This document shows positions 10,789 through 62,049 of a stretch of DNA of 64,000 bases, piece after piece (position 1 is the first letter of the stretch; each line of letters begins with the position of its first letter). The notes under the pieces were generated by a model. The model worked only from the letters and a program-made list of their open reading frames with translations. It did not search any database and was not told the origin of the DNA. The DNA lies in contig WRLO01000004.1 in assembly GCA_009777575.1 (NCBI GenBank), positions 1 through 64,000 of the forward strand, read 5' to 3'. The stretch comes from Candidatus Cloacimonadota bacterium. Lineage in GTDB: Bacteria; Cloacimonadota; Cloacimonadia; Cloacimonadales; WRIO01. Made by a program: the position numbers and the translations under genes.

Positions 10789-12183
10789 CTACAATATTTT
10801 CTTCAACAATTCCAATGTTTCTTCAAAATCTGAGTGATCCTCGACAAACTGTTTGGTAAAATTATTTATAGCCTCTATCTTTGCTATTGCTTGATCTATT
10901 TTTAGATTTGAGCCGGGTGAATATGCGCCTATATTGATAATATCTTCTGCATCTTTATATATAGCAAGGAGTTCAACTATTTTAAAGGCAATATCGCGGT
11001 GTTCACGGGTGATGACTGCATTCATGACACGGCTGATACTTGTAAGTATATCAATAGCTGGATAATGATTTTTTGAAGCAATTTTTCTTGAAAGGACAAT
11101 ATGTCCGTCCAATATAGAACGAGCGGCATCTGCAATAGGTTCATCCATATCATCTCCATCAACCAAGACAGTATATATTCCAGTAATAGTTCCTTTTTCT
11201 GAAGTCCCTGCTCTTTCAAGCAATTTAGGTAATGATGCAAATACAGATGGGGTATATCCTTTTGTGGTGGGTGGTTCACCTATAGCCAAGCCAATTTCCC
11301 TCATTGCCATACAATAACGGGTTACAGAATCCATCATGAATAGAACATTCAAACCTTTATCTCGGAAATATTCGGCTATAGTAGTTGCTACTAAAGCTCC
11401 TTTTACTCTCGTCAAAGCGGCTTGATCGGAGGTAGCTACGACCACAACTGATTTTTTTAGACCTTCTTCACCTAAATCACTTTCAATAAAGTCCCTGACT
11501 TCTCTTCCACGCTCACCTATCAGACCTATCACATTAATATCAGCCTTTGTGTATCTTGCCATCATGCCGAGAGTTACGCTTTTTCCGACACCGGAACCGG
11601 CAAATATACCAATTCTTTGTCCTTTTCCGCATGTTAATAGTCCATCAATTGCTCTAATACCTAGCTGTAGTGGTTCTTTAATCCTTTCCCTTTCTAGGGG
11701 ATTGGGAGGTAAAGCATAGACAGATTTTTTTTCATGAAGATTTAAATGAGTTCCTTTATCTATAGGATTTCCTAGTCCATCAAGCACTCTTCCGAGCAAT
11801 TCGAAACCCACCCCAATTGAAAAAGGTTCTCTAAATGTAGATACTCTATTACCGGGTGCTATGCCATAGAGTTCATTCAGAGGCATTAATAAAGTTTTGT
11901 CTTTTTTAAATCCTACAACTTCAGCGAGATGAACTTGTTTGTCATTTGTATGAATATAACAGACATCTCCTATAGAAGCTACTGGTCCCCAAGACTCTAC
12001 TATTAAACCAATGATTTGAGAGACAGTTCCATTTTGTCTAATAGGATTGATTTTATCAATAATAGCGTAGTATTTTTCAAAATTTAAATGTTTAAAATTT
12101 TCTACATCAGGCGATAATGTTTCTATAATAAGCTCATTTTCATTGATATTGGAATCAGGTATAGTATTATCGATATTAGTCAT
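10789..12183 (-). CDS. fliI: Flagellar protein export ATPase FliI
   Basis: GIFAGSGVGKSVTLGMMAR Walker A; GERGREVRDFIE; position in a flagellar operon. Confidence 0.95.
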   Translation of the reverse strand: MTNIDNTIPDSNINENELIIETLSPDVENFKHLNFEKYYAIIDKINPIRQNGTVSQIIGLIVESWGPVASIGDVCYIHTNDKQVHLAEVVGFKKDKTLLMPLNELYGIAPGNRVSTFREPFSIGVGFELLGRVLDGLGNPIDKGTHLNLHEKKSVYALPPNPLERERIKEPLQLGIRAIDGLLTCGKGQRIGIFAGSGVGKSVTLGMMARYTKADINVIGLIGERGREVRDFIESDLGEEGLKKSVVVVATSDQAALTRVKGALVATTIAEYFRDKGLNVLFMMDSVTRYCMAMREIGLAIGEPPTTKGYTPSVFASLPKLLERAGTSEKGTITGIYTVLVDGDDMDEPIADAARSILDGHIVLSRKIASKNHYPAIDILTSISRVMNAVITREHRDIAFKIVELLAIYKDAEDIINIGAYSPGSNLKIDQAIAKIEAINNFTKQFVEDHSDFEETLELLKKIL

Positions 12184-13072
12184 TTTTTAAAATCTGTCTT
12201 TTAATTTCTTCAAATTGAGTTTCAAGGTCTGAATCAATTGAGCCTACTTTAAAATCGATTTTACATCCTCCAGCAAGAATATTTTCATTGGAAACTATCT
12301 CGATATTTTCTGGTAGATTTATTGAAAGAGATAATTTTTGTAAATTTTCATTAACGATAGCTATATCTTCTGGGTTAACTAATATCTTTATCTCTTCTTT
12401 TTCATTGAGAAGTTCGAGGCTGCGTTTTAAATTGTTTAAGACAATTTCTGGATTGGTAATTACTTCAGTATCAATAACTTTTCTGGCAATCTTTATCATC
12501 AGTTTCAGAGCTTGTTGCTCATAATGTTCCATAAAAACTGTTGTGTATTTAGTTAAATTTTTTATCAATAGCTCGAGTTGTTCTATAACAGTCTGAACCG
12601 AAGCCAGCATTTGATTTTGGGTTTGTTTTATACCTGCTTGATTTCCATTTTGCCAAGCTGTTCTTTTTTCGGTATCCAGTTTTTCTTTATGTTCAGCGGT
12701 CAATTTTTCAATCTCCGCATTCAGCATTTTATTTATCAAGAAATATTGAGATTTTGAAAAAATAGAGTCTTCATAAGAGATTTCTTCATCAGTAAAATAA
12801 GCGTTTCTAACTTCTAAACCGGGGTTTATATCAAAAGTAAAATCAGGTATTTGATAATAAGGCAGATCATTCTCTTTAATAATCTTCTTTTGAGGCAAAT
12901 CATTTGCTGAAGTAGAATCTTCCAATTCTTCAGAAAGCGTATTATCCTCTATAATATCATCAAAAACAGTCTCGTCAAAATCCTCTGAAAGCAATATATC
13001 TTCGTTTTCTTCAGAGAAAATCTGTTCTTCAATTATTTCGATAGTTTTTTCCATCTCTTTATTAGAACTCAT
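12176..13072 (-). CDS. fliH: Flagellar assembly protein FliH
   Basis: FliH-like C-term; overlaps fliI. Confidence 0.8.
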   Translation of the reverse strand: MSSNKEMEKTIEIIEEQIFSEENEDILLSEDFDETVFDDIIEDNTLSEELEDSTSANDLPQKKIIKENDLPYYQIPDFTFDINPGLEVRNAYFTDEEISYEDSIFSKSQYFLINKMLNAEIEKLTAEHKEKLDTEKRTAWQNGNQAGIKQTQNQMLASVQTVIEQLELLIKNLTKYTTVFMEHYEQQALKLMIKIARKVIDTEVITNPEIVLNNLKRSLELLNEKEEIKILVNPEDIAIVNENLQKLSLSINLPENIEIVSNENILAGGCKIDFKVGSIDSDLETQFEEIKRQILKND

Positions 13073-13108
13073 TTTATGCCTCTTAAATAGACTTTATCCA
13101 AATATTAC

Positions 13109-14152
13109 TTATACAAACTCCTCAGTTCCCTTTGAAAGTTGTATTTCACCTGTTTCTTCTTTTTTACGGATAATATCAAGGATATTTTGTTGAGCAGTTT
13201 CCACGTCTTTGAGTTTTACAGGTCCGGTATAATCCATTTCTTCTCTGATGATAGTAGCAGCTCGAACTGAAATATTTTTGAATATTTTAGCCTGAACATC
13301 CTCTTCAACACTCTTTAAAGCCATAACCAAGTCTCTTTGGTCAACATCTTTGAGGATATTTTGAATAGTTCTGTCTTCGAGATAAACGATATCTTCGAAA
13401 ACGAACATAAGGTTCTTGATTTCTTGGGCAAGTTTTGGGTCTTTGATAGAAATAGCTTCGAGGATTGATTTTTCGACAGTAGAACCTACCAAATTGATAA
13501 TTTCAGCAGCAGCACGAACGCCACCAAACTGAGTTCCTTGTTGTGAAAAGTCTATTCTTTCCTCGATGATTTGTTCTACATGAGAAATCATCTCTTGTGA
13601 CACTCTTTCCATTGAAGCAAAACGCACAACAACATCGTTTCTTAGCTCTTCTGGCAGTTCGCCAAGGACATTGGCAGCTTGAATCGGCTCTAACTGAGTT
13701 AAAATTAAGGCTATGGTCTGTGGATGTTCTTTTTGAATAAAAGTCATTAATTGAGTGGCATCGACTTTCTTCAAGACATTGAAACCAGTCACCTGAAGCA
13801 TTCTTTGAATTTTTTTGATAATTTCGGAAGCTCTAGCATCACCAAGAGCACCCTCTAAAACATCTCTTGCATATTCAACACCACCAAGGCTGATAAATTC
13901 TTGCGCTTTTATCATTTCATAAAATTCTTCAAAGACAGCTTCTGTGATTTTTGGTTCTATGAATTGTGTGGTAGCTATTTTAATAGTAATTTTTTCGACA
14001 TCAGTGTCAGGTAATTCTTTAAATAAAACTGAAGAGGCTTCTTTTCCAAGCCCAATCATCAAAATGGCTGTTTTTGTCAGTCCATCATAACCTTTCAACA
14101 TGTTTTGATAGAGTTCGCTTTGGTCTTTATCAAATTTAAACTCAAAATTCAT
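13109..14152 (-). CDS. fliG: Flagellar motor switch protein FliG
   Basis: EHPQTIALILTQLEP and MFVFEDIVYLEDRTIQNILKDVD motifs. Confidence 0.96.
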   Translation of the reverse strand: MNFEFKFDKDQSELYQNMLKGYDGLTKTAILMIGLGKEASSVLFKELPDTDVEKITIKIATTQFIEPKITEAVFEEFYEMIKAQEFISLGGVEYARDVLEGALGDARASEIIKKIQRMLQVTGFNVLKKVDATQLMTFIQKEHPQTIALILTQLEPIQAANVLGELPEELRNDVVVRFASMERVSQEMISHVEQIIEERIDFSQQGTQFGGVRAAAEIINLVGSTVEKSILEAISIKDPKLAQEIKNLMFVFEDIVYLEDRTIQNILKDVDQRDLVMALKSVEEDVQAKIFKNISVRAATIIREEMDYTGPVKLKDVETAQQNILDIIRKKEETGEIQLSKGTEEFV

Positions 14153-55118: not shown

Positions 55119-56018
55119 TTAATTATTTATTGCTTCAGCACCGGAAGCTACTTCTATTATCTGTGTAGTTATTTGGGCTTGTCTTTCTCTATTGTAGAGT
55201 AATGATAAATCGTCTATCAGATCCTCTGCGTTGTCTGTTGCGTTGTCCATTGCTGTCATTCTTGCACCTTGTTCTGCTGCTGTTGATTCGAGGAGTATAT
55301 GCCAAAGCTGCACATTCACATATCTGTTGCCGAGTTCTTCTATTATGGTCATTTCGTCAGGCTCATAGACATAGTCGAGCATTGAGACTTCATCACCTTC
55401 ATAAGGAACTATGGGAATTATTTGTTTATAAACCAGATTTTGCTGTATAGCAGATTTAAATTCATTGAAAATAACAATCACTTTTGAATATTTGCCAGTA
55501 TTGTAAAACTCGATTATTTCTTCTCGAATATCATGTAAATCAAGCAATGATGAAATATCCGATAATCCTGTAAAAAAAGAGATAATATCTCCTTTTTTAT
55601 TTTCTACTTCTGTTTTGTCATTTACTAAACGATAAGCAGAATGTTTACGAAAATAATCATACCCTTTTCTTCCCAGAAATATGAGGTCGCAATCAGGATT
55701 ATTTGATAGGTATTTCTGAGCAAATCGGATGATATTGGAATTAAACGAACCACAAAGACCTTTATCGGCTGTTACTATGATGATAAGTTCTTTTCCTGAA
55801 GGGTTAATAGGAATCAAAAGAGGATGTGGAGTATAATTATTTTTTTTTTGTAATATTCTGAGCATACGGTCTACTTGATCGGCATAAGGTCTTGCGTTTA
55901 GTACTGCTTCTTGACTTTTTCGGAGTTTTGAAGCTGCGACCATTTTCATTGCATTAGTGATTTGCTTTATACTTTTGACACTGGATATACGACCTTTTAA
56001 ATCTCTCAGGTTTGCCAT
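55119..56018 (-). CDS. atpG: ATP synthase F1 gamma subunit
   Basis: DLKGRISSVKSIKQITNAMKMVAASKLRK; C-term RERQAQITTQIIEVASGAEAI. Confidence 0.97.
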   Translation of the reverse strand: MANLRDLKGRISSVKSIKQITNAMKMVAASKLRKSQEAVLNARPYADQVDRMLRILQKKNNYTPHPLLIPINPSGKELIIIVTADKGLCGSFNSNIIRFAQKYLSNNPDCDLIFLGRKGYDYFRKHSAYRLVNDKTEVENKKGDIISFFTGLSDISSLLDLHDIREEIIEFYNTGKYSKVIVIFNEFKSAIQQNLVYKQIIPIVPYEGDEVSMLDYVYEPDEMTIIEELGNRYVNVQLWHILLESTAAEQGARMTAMDNATDNAEDLIDDLSLLYNRERQAQITTQIIEVASGAEAINN

Positions 56019-56031
56019 TATTTCCTCTTTA

Positions 56032-57561
56032 TCAGTTTGCTGTCTGAGAAGTGCTTGGTATTGTAAAACGAGCCACTACTTCTGCACATATTTCTCTCAT
56101 TTTAGCATTCATTTCATCGGTGATTTTGTCCTTTATCAGATTCTGCGCGAAATCCTTGTATTTTGAGTCTAACAAAGTAAATAAATCTTGTTCTACTTCT
56201 TTGATTTTACGAACTTCTATATCATCAAGATAACCATTGTTAGCCATAAAAATAACAAATATTTGCTTTTCTACTGCGAGAGGGACATTTTCATCTTGTT
56301 TTAATATTTCTACAATTCGTTCACCTCTGGTTAATTGAGCTCTTGTTGATTTATCTAGGTCTGAACCAAATTTTGCAAAGGCTTCCAATTCATTGTATTG
56401 AGCAAGATTAAGACGGAGTTGCCCAACAACTGATTTCATTGCCTTGATTTGAGCACTACCACCCACACGAGAAACTGAAAGACCTGCTACGATAGCTGGT
56501 CTGATTCCTGAATAGAAAAGTCTTGTGGATAAATATATTTGTCCATCTGTTATAGAAATCACATTGGTCGGTATATAAGCTGACATATCTTCTGCTTTTG
56601 TTTCTATGATAGGAAGTGCTGTCAATGAGCCACCTCCCTTTTCATCACTGAGTTTAGATGCTCTTTCTAATAATCTTGAATGAAGATAAAACACATCACC
56701 TGGAAATGCTTCACGACCCGGAGGTCTTCTAAGCAAGAGAGATATTTCTCTATAGGCTGCTGCATGTTTCGATAAATCATCATAAATTACGAGGGCATGT
56801 TTACCATTATGGCAAAAATATTCGCCAATAGAACAGCCAGCATAAGGTGCAATATATAGAAGAGCAGGTGTCTCAGAGGCACTGGCACAGACAATCGTTG
56901 TGAAAGACATGGCTCCATGTTTTTCAAGAGTCTTAACGATTTTTGCTACAGTAGACATTTTTTGTCCTATTGCTACATAAATACAATGCACATCTTTGCC
57001 TTTTTGATTGATGATTGTATCTATAGCAATTGCTGTTTTCCCTGTTTGCCTATCACCTATGATCAACTCTCTTTGACCTCTACCTATGGGTATCATCGCA
57101 TCGATTGCTTTTATCCCTGTTTGAAGTGGTTCTTTGACAGGTTGACGATGAACGACTCCCAGAGCTTTTTGTTCGATTGGGAGGGTTTGAGTTGCTTTTA
57201 TTTCGCCTTTACCATCAATGGGTTGCCCTAGTGCATTAACCACACGACCAAGCATTGCCTCACCTACAGGAACTTCTAATATCCTTCCTGTTCTCTTTAC
57301 CAAATCCCCTTCTTTGATATGAGTCGAATCACCAAATATTATGACACCGATATTCTCTTGTTCGAGGTTTAGTGCCATTCCTATCGTATCACCAGGGAAT
57401 ACGACCATCTCGCCAGCCATGACATTTTCAAGCCCGAAAATTCGCGCTATACCATCGCCTACTTGAACGACTTTACCCGTCTCTGAAATATCTATATCGT
57501 ATTGGAAATTGGCTATCTTGTTCTTGATGATAGCACTTATTTCTTCGGGTTGTATATTCAT
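56032..57561 (-). CDS. atpA: ATP synthase F1 alpha subunit
   Basis: [33 protein letters not shown]. Confidence 0.98.
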
Positions 57562-57649: not shown

Positions 57650-58135
57650 TTAAATCGGTCTATTGACCAAATTGCTCTCAAAAGATTTCTTGTTTTTCAG
57701 GGCGCCTACCAGATAAAGAACAGGTAAAATTAAACTAATCAAGATACCAAAGCTCGCAGACATATCAAACTTTGTGATTAATAAAATCTGCGATATGATT
57801 ATCAAAAATAAATTCAATAATCCTATGTACATAATCAAAGTTCCTTTATCGGCTCGTCTGGAAAATATGACACCCATTATTCCCACAAATAGTGTAAATA
57901 CAAGCCAAACCATCCCATATTGCATCATTTGGACTGAAAAAAACAACATCATATCAGGATCTGTTTGACCTATCTCATTTATCAAATCTTGAAAGAAAGG
58001 ATCTTCGAAGAGTGACATTAGTATCATCAAACTAAAAATACCTACGACAGAGCATATTATGTATATAATCCCAATGATTTTTAAATAAATCCCACCGGGT
58101 GTTTCTATACAATTTTCAAGCTCATGCATGTTCAC
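57650..58135 (-). CDS. Four-TM hypothetical protein inserted between atpH and atpA
   Basis: ORF overlapping the atpH 3' end; hydrophobic. Confidence 0.75.
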   Translation of the reverse strand: MNMHELENCIETPGGIYLKIIGIIYIICSVVGIFSLMILMSLFEDPFFQDLINEIGQTDPDMMLFFSVQMMQYGMVWLVFTLFVGIMGVIFSRRADKGTLIMYIGLLNLFLIIISQILLITKFDMSASFGILISLILPVLYLVGALKNKKSFESNLVNRPI

Positions 58136-58664
58136 CTACTGTCTTTGCAAAACGATTCAGATTTGAACGAACAGAGGCATCTATGATAGTATTTTTGTCT
58201 ATGGCTATGAAACCTCCAATAATATCCTTGTCGATATGAACATCGCAAACTATATTTTTATGCAATATTTTTTCGACTTCTTTCTTTACATTTTCGATTG
58301 TTTCTGAGTCTTGATTGCGAGCAAAAATTATATCTACTTTCTTTTGATTTAATTCTTTATAAAGCATTTCTTCAAGCTCAATGAAAAATAGTTTCATTAT
58401 AGAACTTCTATTTTTCAAGACAAGCACAGTCAAAGATTTTCTCCAGAACTCTCTATTTTTTACGAGTTCGGTTATCTCATTGATAAAATCCAATTTCTTC
58501 TCTTTGTTCACAAAAGCAGAAGCAAGCATTCTTTTGATAGCTTCGTTATTACTAAAAACATCGTGCATGAGCTGGATTTGATTTAAAATATCAGCATAAA
58601 TCTCAGGATTCAAAGTTTGCATTGCAGCTTTGGCATAGCGTTTTGCAATGATGATATTTTTCAT
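58122..58664 (-). CDS. atpH: ATP synthase F1 delta subunit
   Basis: IIAKRYAKAAMQT; CDVHIDKDIIGGFIAIDKNTIIDASVRSNLNRF. Confidence 0.93.
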   Translation of the reverse strand: MKNIIIAKRYAKAAMQTLNPEIYADILNQIQLMHDVFSNNEAIKRMLASAFVNKEKKLDFINEITELVKNREFWRKSLTVLVLKNRSSIMKLFFIELEEMLYKELNQKKVDIIFARNQDSETIENVKKEVEKILHKNIVCDVHIDKDIIGGFIAIDKNTIIDASVRSNLNRFAKTVGEHA

Positions 58665-59140
58665 CTCTGTCCCCGCTTAGTTATCAGTTTATTGATAAGT
58701 TCTTTATCTTTTGTATCATCGATTTTTTCTGATAAAATCTTACCCGTCAAATCTGCTACTATTTCTGTTAATTGGATTTCTAAATCTTTCATAGCATTTT
58801 TGCCCATTGTTTTTAGCTTGTTTTCGGTTTGAGATACTATATCACGCTCTTGCTCTTTTGCCGCTTTCAAGATGTTTTCTGCCTGATTTTCTGCTTCGTG
58901 CCGAATAGTATCCTTGATTTTGCGAGCTTCTTCGATTGCGTTTTTCAGCTCGCCTTCCCTTTCTTCGGCTAATTTGTTTGCTTTTATGGATGCTTGATTG
59001 GCTTCTTCGATGTCATCTTGTATCTTTTTTTGCCTATCACTTAAAAATCCTTTCAAAGGCTTGTATAGGATAGCATTCAAGCATATTAATAGCAACACAA
59101 AGTTCAGGATTACCGCTATTAACGATATATCTATTGTCAT
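58661..59140 (-). CDS. atpF: ATP synthase F0 b subunit
   Basis: N-terminal TM + long coiled coil; operon position. Confidence 0.93.
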   Translation of the reverse strand: MTIDISLIAVILNFVLLLICLNAILYKPLKGFLSDRQKKIQDDIEEANQASIKANKLAEEREGELKNAIEEARKIKDTIRHEAENQAENILKAAKEQERDIVSQTENKLKTMGKNAMKDLEIQLTEIVADLTGKILSEKIDDTKDKELINKLITKRGQR

Positions 59141-59163: not shown

Positions 59164-59421
<258 letters not shown>

Positions 59422-59446: not shown

Positions 59447-60226
59447 TTACATAAAGATCAACAAGAGAGATACTACTAGTGCATAAATTGCTGTTGATTG
59501 AGCAACTGCTGAGCTGAGAAACATTGTTCGCATCAATAATGATTGTTGTTCTTTATACCTTGCCAGCATCTTGCCGGCTTGACCAGCTATATATCCTACA
59601 CCGACGCCCGGACCAAAAGAGCCTATTCCCATGGCAATAGCTGCTCCCATAAATGCTAATGAACGCATTATTTGATAGCCAGCTTCTTGGTTTGCTGACA
59701 CTGAGGGTACCGTATAGATCAATAAAAAAGATACCACTAAAGCAAATATTGAAGCTGTTTGAGATAATGCTTGACCTATCAACATATTGGTTGTTATCGG
59801 TAATGTTTGAGAGGGCGTTCTGCCTATGCCATCGCAGGCTTCTGCTCCTGCATGACCGGAACCAAAGCTAGGTCCCAAACTTCCTAATCCCATTGCCAAT
59901 GCTGATGCCAATAAGGCGGTTGACTTTACTAAGTCAAGAGAAGCATTTAAAAAACCGCCAAAGAGCAATAACAAGCTCACCACAAGTGCAAATATCGCAC
60001 CACTTTCGGTTAATGCCTGACTTATCAACATAGAACGAAGCAAGGTGTCCTTTGCCCCCGGTTGCCTTCCGATTGCTTTCATTGTATAACCAGCTATTTG
60101 ACCTTCTCCAAAGCCTGCACCAATAGATGCCAATCCTGTGCAAACGCCTGCTCCAAAAAAAATAAATGCTCTTGCTACTTCAGGGTTTATCATTTTTCCT
60201 CCAAAATCGGATAAAATATTTTCCAA
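59447..60226 (-). CDS. Fused triple-hairpin ATP synthase c subunit
   Basis: Three tandem c-like hairpins: ...QALTESGAIFALVV, ...QALSQTASIFALVV, ...SAVAQSTAIYALVV. Confidence 0.93.
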   Translation of the reverse strand: MENILSDFGGKMINPEVARAFIFFGAGVCTGLASIGAGFGEGQIAGYTMKAIGRQPGAKDTLLRSMLISQALTESGAIFALVVSLLLLFGGFLNASLDLVKSTALLASALAMGLGSLGPSFGSGHAGAEACDGIGRTPSQTLPITTNMLIGQALSQTASIFALVVSFLLIYTVPSVSANQEAGYQIMRSLAFMGAAIAMGIGSFGPGVGVGYIAGQAGKMLARYKEQQSLLMRTMFLSSAVAQSTAIYALVVSLLLIFM

Positions 60227-60237
60227 TGAAAATAAGT

Positions 60238-60675
60238 TTATTTGTCTTTTTTATCATAGTTAACCTGCCATTGTATACCAAATTTGTCTTCAAATTGACC
60301 CCAATAAGCACCCCAAAAAGTGTTGTCTAAAGGCATTTGTATCTTGCCTCCCTCTGATAAAGCATAAAAAATTCTATCTGCTTCTTCTTTGCTATCTACT
60401 GACACACTGATGTAAAAATTGTTCCCTTTATTATGGTCTGCAGTCCATAATTCATGGGTATCGCTTCCCATTAATTTGGTCTCTTCACTAATTGGTAATC
60501 CTATATGTATGATTCGATCTTTCAAATCATCTTCAATTCCAGGAGATCCTTCTTCAACTGGCATATCCTTGAATCTGCCTACATAGTCAAACTCCCCTCC
60601 AAAAACTGATTGGTAAAATAAAAAAGCTTCCTCGCAATTTCCCATAAATATCAGATATACATTTACTGTCGGCAT
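60238..60675 (-). CDS. VOC/PhnB-like protein
   Basis: YLIFMGNCEEAFLFYQSVFGGEF ... WGAYWGQFEDKFGIQWQVNY. Confidence 0.9.
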   Translation of the reverse strand: MPTVNVYLIFMGNCEEAFLFYQSVFGGEFDYVGRFKDMPVEEGSPGIEDDLKDRIIHIGLPISEETKLMGSDTHELWTADHNKGNNFYISVSVDSKEEADRIFYALSEGGKIQMPLDNTFWGAYWGQFEDKFGIQWQVNYDKKDK

Positions 60676-60716: not shown

Positions 60717-61694
60717 TTAAGCATCCTCACCTATTTCCAAAGACAAATAGGTCAAAGACAACATCGTAAATACAAATGCCTGTATGGTGCCCGCAAATAA
60801 TGTGAAAAACATCGTTAGTCCCACTGGTAAAATCACATACATCGTTAATGCACTTATTACCGTCGCTATGATTGCTCCACCAAATATATTGCCGAAAAGA
60901 CGGAATGAGATTGATATCAATTTTGATAATTCGCCTACGACATTTAGCGGAAATAAAATAAATACAGGTTCGCAAAAACCTTTTAAATGTTGTAAAATAC
61001 CCTTTTTTTTCACTGCCAAAACTTGCACCATACCTAAAGACATAATGCCAAGACCGAGCGGTACATTCAAGTTTTTTGTTGGTTCACTTATACCCGGTAT
61101 AGGTAAAAAACCGCTCCAGTTTGAGATCAAAATAAAGATAAATAGCGTTACAAAAAAAGGTGTAAATTTTTTGTTTTTTGCTCCCAATGTCTCTTCTACC
61201 AGATCATCAAGAAAATTCCATAGAAATTCTACTATTATCTGAGCTTTTGAGGGGATAAAACTAAGTTGTTTTCTTAAATATATTGCTAAAACAATAAAAA
61301 AGATGTTGATAAAAAACAAAGTGCGCCATAACTGAAAATTCACTATCGTGCTAGGGGCTGCGAACCAATTGGTCGCACCTATTTTACCGAAAAACTTATC
61401 AAAGAAATCATAAATCTTTTTACTTCCCCAAGTAAATTGTTCCGGATTTTCGATATTATTTTCAATGACAAATTTATCTGGCTGAATACTGAGACCTATG
61501 TCATCCTGCATGGTAGTGCCTTTTTCTACTAAAGAAAACATTTTGCCAGTTTCAGGATCTTCTCCAATGACAATGCTTTTGCTCATAAAAAGTGCTAAAA
61601 CAATGTGGACTACAAAGAATATCAGGAATATCTTTCCTAAACTCATTTTTTTCTTACTCATCTTCACCTCTAAAATATTTTTCCAATTTTCCAT
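60717..61694 (-). CDS. atpB: ATP synthase F0 a subunit
   Basis: ISISFRLFGNIFGG stator Arg motif; multi-TM. Confidence 0.96.
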   Translation of the reverse strand: MENWKNILEVKMSKKKMSLGKIFLIFFVVHIVLALFMSKSIVIGEDPETGKMFSLVEKGTTMQDDIGLSIQPDKFVIENNIENPEQFTWGSKKIYDFFDKFFGKIGATNWFAAPSTIVNFQLWRTLFFINIFFIVLAIYLRKQLSFIPSKAQIIVEFLWNFLDDLVEETLGAKNKKFTPFFVTLFIFILISNWSGFLPIPGISEPTKNLNVPLGLGIMSLGMVQVLAVKKKGILQHLKGFCEPVFILFPLNVVGELSKLISISFRLFGNIFGGAIIATVISALTMYVILPVGLTMFFTLFAGTIQAFVFTMLSLTYLSLEIGEDA

Positions 61695-62049
61695 ATCGAA
61701 GATTATGGTAAAATTGATATAAAAAAACTACTATTTGAGCTGATAATAATCCTAAACAATAAGATATCAGCTCAGGCTTGATAAAATATAACACCAAGAC
61801 CGACCATACTATCAAATATAAATATCGAAATACAAAACCTTTTGCAGTTCGAACTACATTTGCTTTACCAGCTTCTGGGATCAAGTTCAGCGTATTCCTT
61901 GCCATAAGCCAAAAATTCACCGCACTCGCTATCGATCCTAACATCCACCCTATGCTACTTTTGAAACTAATAGATAAAAAAATCAAGGCAGGTAAATTTG
62001 TCAATAGTATCAATTTTAAAATAGTCAAAACATATTGCCTATTGTCCAT
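61654..62049 (-). CDS. AtpI-like small membrane protein
   Basis: 131 aa, about 4 TM, directly upstream of atpB. Confidence 0.65.
   Translation of the reverse strand: MDNRQYVLTILKLILLTNLPALIFLSISFKSSIGWMLGSIASAVNFWLMARNTLNLIPEAGKANVVRTAKGFVFRYLYLIVWSVLVLYFIKPELISYCLGLLSAQIVVFLYQFYHNLRYGKLEKYFRGEDE

Follow-up and report, generated by a model that had tools for sequence, protein, structure and literature searches.

A fused triple-hairpin F-type c subunit with one remaining ion-binding site in Candidatus Cloacimonadota: evidence for a probable hybrid Na+ rotor

The ratio of ions to ATP in an F-type ATP synthase is normally set by the number of c subunits in the rotor. A gene of a Candidatus Cloacimonadota bacterium raises the question of whether this ratio may also be set in another way, as its product joins three c hairpins in one protein and keeps the ion-binding glutamate at position 65 in only one of them. 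This gene, hereafter triple c, lies on the reverse strand of the 64,000 nucleotides analysed here (the window; positions 1 to 64,000 of contig WRLO01000004.1, assembly GCA_009777575.1), which belong to a fragmented metagenome-assembled genome (MAG) of 3.76 Mb, 91% complete and divided into 198 contigs. The probable answer to which our results point is a hybrid Na+ rotor in which a fused arc is partly blank and each ATP takes fewer ions, the ratio being apparently set by silenced sites in that arc.

Hairpins and ion-site residues of the triple c

The open reading frame at 59447..60226 exceeds the curated cut-offs of the F-type c family (PF00137; NCBIfam F0F1 subunit C), with PF00137 matching three hairpins in three stretches (141 bits, cut-off 24) and NF009999 scoring 157 bits (cut-off 124). 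In an AlphaFold2 (AF2) model, with a predicted local distance difference test (pLDDT) score of 93.6, the helices span all three hairpins. Translation probably starts at ATG 60193, giving a protein of 248 aa (59447..60193), since GGAGG lies five bases upstream and the alignment of relatives begins there; TTG 60226, which would give 259 aa, is disfavoured.

Hairpin 1 (59960..60184; motif QALTESGAIF) has both carboxylates, the E32 equivalent at 60104-60106 and the E65 equivalent at 60005-60007 (GAA), with G and F in the places of T67 and Y70. No ion-binding carboxylate is found in hairpin 2 (59711..59932; QALSQTASIF), which has S at 32, Q at 65 (CAA, 59759-59761) and F at 70. Hairpin 3 (59453..59683; SAVAQSTAIY) carries V at 32 and Q at 65 (CAA, 59498-59500) and keeps V63, S66, T67 and Y70. 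The resulting pattern at position 65, EQQ, departs from one carboxylate per hairpin, and the protein is a homologue of F-type c but no ordinary c subunit.

The triple c has atpB on one side and a normal atpE on the other, in an F-type operon that also encodes subunits a, b, delta, alpha and gamma. This atpE (59164..59409, reverse strand; open frame from 59421) encodes a canonical single-hairpin c with the two-carboxylate Na+ motif (E32 and E65-S-T..Y); its residues E32, V63, E65, S66, T67 and Y70 make up the full set of Na+ ligands of the Fusobacterium nucleatum type. ATG 59409 is probably its start, giving 81 aa, because GGAGG falls between the two ATGs of the gene. The four hairpins of the triple and single c are the only ones in the genome, this being its sole c locus of a rotary ATPase.

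An earlier note on this DNA, made from the sequence, had described three fused F-type hairpins with one carboxylate left and Gln in its place twice, next to a canonical c in an F-type operon, and the profile searches, codons and motifs given above bear out each of these points. Its lengths of 259 and 85 aa fare less well: the open frame and the identity of the canonical c are right, the starts probably not. Likewise, its account of the carboxylate site was accurate for position 65 and overlooked position 32, where hairpin 1 and the single c have E and hairpins 2 and 3 have S and V. The comparison with c-subunit structures that it had proposed gives 4bem_J, the c1 subunit of Acetobacterium woodii, as best match in the Protein Data Bank by sequence (E 1.4e-24) and also by fold; in the deposited ring, a single c1 chain accompanies nine c2 chains.

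In the F. nucleatum ring, the Na+ site is made of Glu32 and Glu65 together with Ser66 and Val63 of the neighbouring subunit (PMC3692424). In this regard, the last hairpins of the triple c proteins of the phylum have V63 in 64 of 65 cases, S66 and T67 in 64 each, Y70 in 65 and E32 in none, position 32 being I or V throughout and never E or Q; all first and middle hairpins have F70. Even where hairpin 3 bears Q, S66, T67 and Y70 are still present (8/8). Two half-sites are retained by position in the window protein, E32/E65 in hairpin 1 and V63/S66/T67/Y70 in hairpin 3, most simply read as a fusion whose outer faces are both matched to live single c subunits and whose internal faces are silent.

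Site losses and selection within and beyond the phylum

A survey of relatives, also proposed in the earlier note, covered 125 genomes of the phylum and gave matches in 72, including two that have only a single c from a different operon type. Most genomes bearing an F-type operon have a triple c gene in the identical slot, and the order atpI-atpB-triple c-atpE-atpF-atpH-atpA-atpG is kept across the phylum. We read 64 complete triple orthologues. Among the 67 proteins extracted, the patterns at position 65 are EQE (25), QQE (22), EEE (8), EQQ (6, window included), GQE (2) and QQQ (2), the remaining two being incomplete triples. The adjoining single c has E65 in 64/64 cases and E32 in 62, with Q32 in the other two.

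When site changes were counted on a tree of subunits a, b, alpha and gamma, the Glu of hairpin 1 had been lost at least twice, and changes at the site numbered at least five in hairpin 2 and at least six in hairpin 3, the latter including one frameshift artefact (G087); the loss seen in hairpin 3 of the window protein is independent. Hairpin 1 occurs as E32/E65, V32/E65, S32/Q65 or T32/G65; E32 was never seen with Q65, and loss at position 65 is accompanied by loss at position 32.

Changes within the gene itself are seen in several members of the phylum. In one family (f13, L090-L102), hairpin 2 switches between I32/E65 and N32/Q65 among close relatives; judged from these sequences, the loss or regain of this site appears recent and recurrent, with gene conversion from another hairpin as a possible route. 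A 164-aa reading frame in a further genome (L105, G124) has two hairpins with Glu in both, the second resembling a chimera of hairpins 2 and 3, which suggests that recombination between hairpins of one gene can delete or restore sites. In G087 (L114), the triple c goes out of frame in hairpin 3 and runs into the start of the single c, likely as an assembly or sequencing error.

The hairpins without carboxylate are under strong purifying selection. In 24 close pairs, which are non-independent and yield descriptive figures, the ratio of nonsynonymous to synonymous difference counts is 0.14-0.17 for Q hairpins (hairpins 2 and 1), 0.16-0.32 for E hairpins and 0.22 for the single c, against a neutral expectation of about 3. 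Pairwise ratios of nonsynonymous to synonymous substitution rates (dN/dS) of Q65 hairpins are mostly below 0.1, and the constraint on them is no weaker than on live hairpins.

The family is not restricted to Cloacimonadota, an idea that we rejected upon finding it in at least four other phyla. A profile of the triple c family, searched against 386 relatives, detected multi-hairpin c in 16 genomes from other phyla, where the operons run a, multi-c, single c, b, (delta), alpha, gamma. The patterns there are EQQ (four genomes), EQH, ESQQ and ESSQ (four hairpins), GQQQ, SQQ, EQ, GQ and EE. A follow-up of four other phyla found multi-hairpin c in 12/12, 2/2, 4/4 and 5/44 genomes; at least four phyla besides Cloacimonadota have homologues of two, three and four hairpins in which sites are dead. 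In the phylum of 12 genomes, seven complete triples are SQQ, with zero carboxylates, and are spread over several genera, one of them in a single-contig genome (G367). The triple fusion had been called unusual in the earlier note, which is correct for one genome and too narrow for a feature of this distribution.

In a hairpin tree built with FastTree from an alignment of only 74 columns, nearly all first hairpins of all phyla cluster, as do the middle hairpins, and the hairpins of A. woodii c1 stand apart. When nine ion-site columns were masked, the group of first hairpins mostly held (28 members) and the last and middle groups were less clean. Because hairpins group by position across phyla, those of the triple c likely derive from one old fusion, possibly transferred between phyla; the same tree suggests an independent origin for the fusion in A. 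woodii c1.

The proposed rotor arc and its alternatives

We propose a model in which the triple c would be inserted, probably once per ring, among single c subunits as a fixed arc of the rotor. The Q hairpins would hold the geometry of the ring without an ion and move past subunit a as blanks that are always neutral. Hairpin 1 would provide the carboxylate half-site and the last hairpin would offer its partner half to the neighbouring single c, such that both junctions with ordinary c would be live and the internal interfaces silent. By analogy with A. woodii, one triple per ring would remove two sites in the enzyme of the window, so that each revolution, and with it each ATP, would take fewer ions at an unchanged number of hairpins. 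For a ring of 11 hairpins with one triple, the calculated ratio would be 3.67 for EEE, 3.33 for EQE, 3.0 for EQQ and 2.67 for QQQ, falling by a third of an ion per ATP with every site lost. A hetero-oligomeric rotor with fewer ion sites had been put forward in the earlier note, and is well supported indirectly by the operon slot, the canonical c, purifying selection and the match to A. woodii c1. Its corollary of operation at low ion-motive force must be reversed: with fewer ions per ATP, more energy must come from each ion, and synthesis needs a higher ion-motive force. The two advantages that it named therefore pull in opposite directions, since fewer ions per ATP mean more ATP per ion but a higher ion-motive force. 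The benefit lies in a higher yield of ATP from each ion pumped or, during ATP-driven pumping, in a steeper gradient.

Na+ as the coupling ion would fit the rest of the genome, which has a gene for an Rnf/Nqr-type subunit and two OAD-beta genes (decarboxylase-beta Na+ pumps). In line with this notion, a published account of Cloacimonadota mentions a Na+ F-type synthase (PMC8542988), and a Na+ economy fits these observations; the ATP synthase passages of that account make no mention of a triple c.

Several points weigh against this model. The place of the fusion in the ring is predicted here from gene sequences. Not every enzyme tolerates blanks: in the fused c10 of Bacillus PS3, a single E56Q abolished ATP synthesis (PMC8809890). 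Moreover, the zero-carboxylate relatives (QQQ, SQQ, GQQQ) would give blank arcs of three or four hairpins, whereas A. woodii has only one blank. Finally, the half-site account fits EQQ proteins such as that of the window, but not the QQE proteins common in Cloacimonadota, whose hairpin 3 carries Glu itself, without E32.

Some of these points would be expected if the triple c were made with the Fo operon but acted outside the working rotor, as an assembly template or as a regulatory substitute forming an inactive or slowed ring. The conservation of the zero-carboxylate SQQ form over several genera of another phylum, the origin of QQQ at least twice in Cloacimonadota and the effect of one blank in PS3 speak for such a role; we nevertheless consider it unlikely, as the EEE, EQE and EQQ forms have held on to live sites for long periods, the last hairpin retains its outer half-site as though facing a live neighbour, the closest solved homologue, A. 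woodii c1, is a ring component, and positions facing subunit a are unneeded for assembly alone.

A rotor coupled to both ions is decidedly improbable. Here, the single c would hold Na+ sites (E32/E65), and hairpin 3 of most Cloacimonadota, with I32 and E65, would be of proton type; its position 32 is always I or V, and D61 of Escherichia coli has similarly hydrophobic surroundings. This idea is, however, inapplicable to the window protein, in which hairpin 3 bears Q; ion specificity is here read from sequence, and Na+-type c-rings can carry H+ without Na+ (PMC7911925). Degeneration of a duplicate, with the extra hairpins as decaying paralogues that have no rotor function, is more improbable still: Glu has indeed been lost repeatedly and independently, but the dN/dS of dead hairpins is as low as that of live ones, on which ground we rejected decay, the gene keeps its length and operon slot throughout the phylum, with similar operons in others, and the substitution is nearly always Gln rather than random. 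Misassembly, which the earlier note had named as a concern, or a chimera, either of which the fragmented MAG might invite, has a negligible probability; both, and chance as well, are excluded by the 64 complete orthologues in the matching operon slot of other assemblies and by the triple in the single-contig genome.

Returning to the partly blank rotor, a broader proposal, on which our judgement is evenly balanced, is that the family forms a class of F-type rotors across several phyla, in which a pre-fused arc of two to four hairpins had its sites progressively silenced down to none, leaving blank arcs of about 90-120 degrees in a working motor, and in which gearing evolved by site silencing at constant ring size. 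Working blank arcs, if true, would contradict the rule drawn from engineered rings, by which a single blank hairpin is enough to halt ATP synthesis. The natural series of three, two, one and no live sites, at constant fusion length and with an unchanged single c, is a ready-made experiment in rotor gearing, and bears on the longest run of blanks that a rotary motor can get past and on the reason that a single Glu-to-Gln change kills the engineered PS3 rotor. Furthermore, ATP yields calculated for these uncultured anaerobes from the total number of hairpins would be wrong. In the literature searched, which was mostly open to readers without subscription, we found no report of an F-type c that has three or four hairpins and at most one carboxylate.

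Operon setting and comparison with known rotors

All genes of the operon are on the reverse strand. Subunit a (atpB, 60717..61694) has its stator arginine in SISFRLFGN, kept in 52/52 orthologues with residues at that site. The operon further holds atpI (61654..62049), atpF for subunit b (58661..59140), atpH for delta (58122..58664), atpA for alpha (56032..57561) and atpG for gamma (55119..56018). The genome has a single F1, with beta and epsilon (atpD, atpC) beside a fabD-like sequence on another contig (C7), which makes this a split operon. A VOC-family (YjdN-like) gene (60238-60675) between atpB and the triple c is unique to this genome among the operons compared, and a reading frame for a 161-aa membrane protein (57650-58135), between atpH and atpA, was undetected in the other operons. 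RNA folding around the starts of the triple and single c gave no significant structure as a translational signal setting their ratio.

No second rotary ATPase that might use the triple c was found among the ATP-synt_ab matches of the genome. One of these, a 464-aa reading frame at 10789-12183 of the window, is read as the flagellar FliI from its fliG/fliH-like neighbours; a weak match on contig C2, taken uninspected, is presumed to be Rho. The flagellar-type genes (FliI-, FliH- and FliG-like, 10789-14152, reverse strand) were identified by eye.

We also tried assignment to an alternate F1F0 (N-ATPase), which was rejected, as TIGR03322 scores 121.7 for the triple c, below the cut-off of 130.85, and 69.2 for the single c; the gene order differs from that of the two N-type-looking operons found in the phylum. 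These (L107 in G082, L108 in G054; beta-like, a, c, b, alpha, gamma, with a single c) belong to a family without the triple c (f10), most sampled members of which have c genes of about 140-180 aa with two PF00137 hairpins each, which appears as expected for the V/A type. A V/A-type identity of the triple c itself was rejected, since all V-type K profiles fall below their cut-offs, the operon is F-type and the genome holds no other c hairpins. It resembles V- and A-type c subunits (NtpK of Enterococcus hirae, 2bl2; archaeal multi-hairpin c) in its fused hairpins, a lost carboxylate and a similar two-hairpin fold, but those lie in V/A operons, whereas the window has an F-type operon, F-type profile matches and a single-hairpin c alongside.

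With the c11 Na+ ring of F. nucleatum (PMC3692424, PDB 3zk1), the single c and hairpin 1 share Glu32 and Glu65, and the single c also Val63, Ser66, Thr67 and Tyr70; that ring is, however, homomeric and made of single hairpins. The fused c10 of PS3 likewise joins F-type c hairpins covalently and carries Glu-to-Gln in one, but it is artificial and its one E56Q is lethal to ATP synthesis, whereas the natural fusions keep two or three blanks.

The closest parallel is A. woodii, whose ring has 10 sites and 3.3 Na+ per ATP (PMC7793690). As in the window, a multi-hairpin and a single-hairpin c share one F-type operon, an arrangement also found in Clostridium aceticum, and in both species the dead hairpin of c1 has a Glu-to-Gln change (PMC7911925). 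The c1 sequence reads Q..ET and then Q..QT, with Gln replacing Glu in the later hairpin as in the triple c, and its first hairpin ends in ..IF and its last in ..IY, the same order of F and then Y at position 70. The window thus shares with this type of hybrid rotor the mixed c genes in an F-type operon and the replaced carboxylate, but not the fusion of two hairpins: c1 has two hairpins and one blank, the triple c three hairpins and two blanks, and relatives of the latter reach four hairpins and as few as zero carboxylates. Hybrid rotors that pair an F-type with a V-type-like c gene were reportedly noted by Brandt and Mueller in 2015 in about a dozen species. Two-hairpin hybrid rotors are already known; set against the one solved example, the triple c family has a far wider range and goes to greater extremes.
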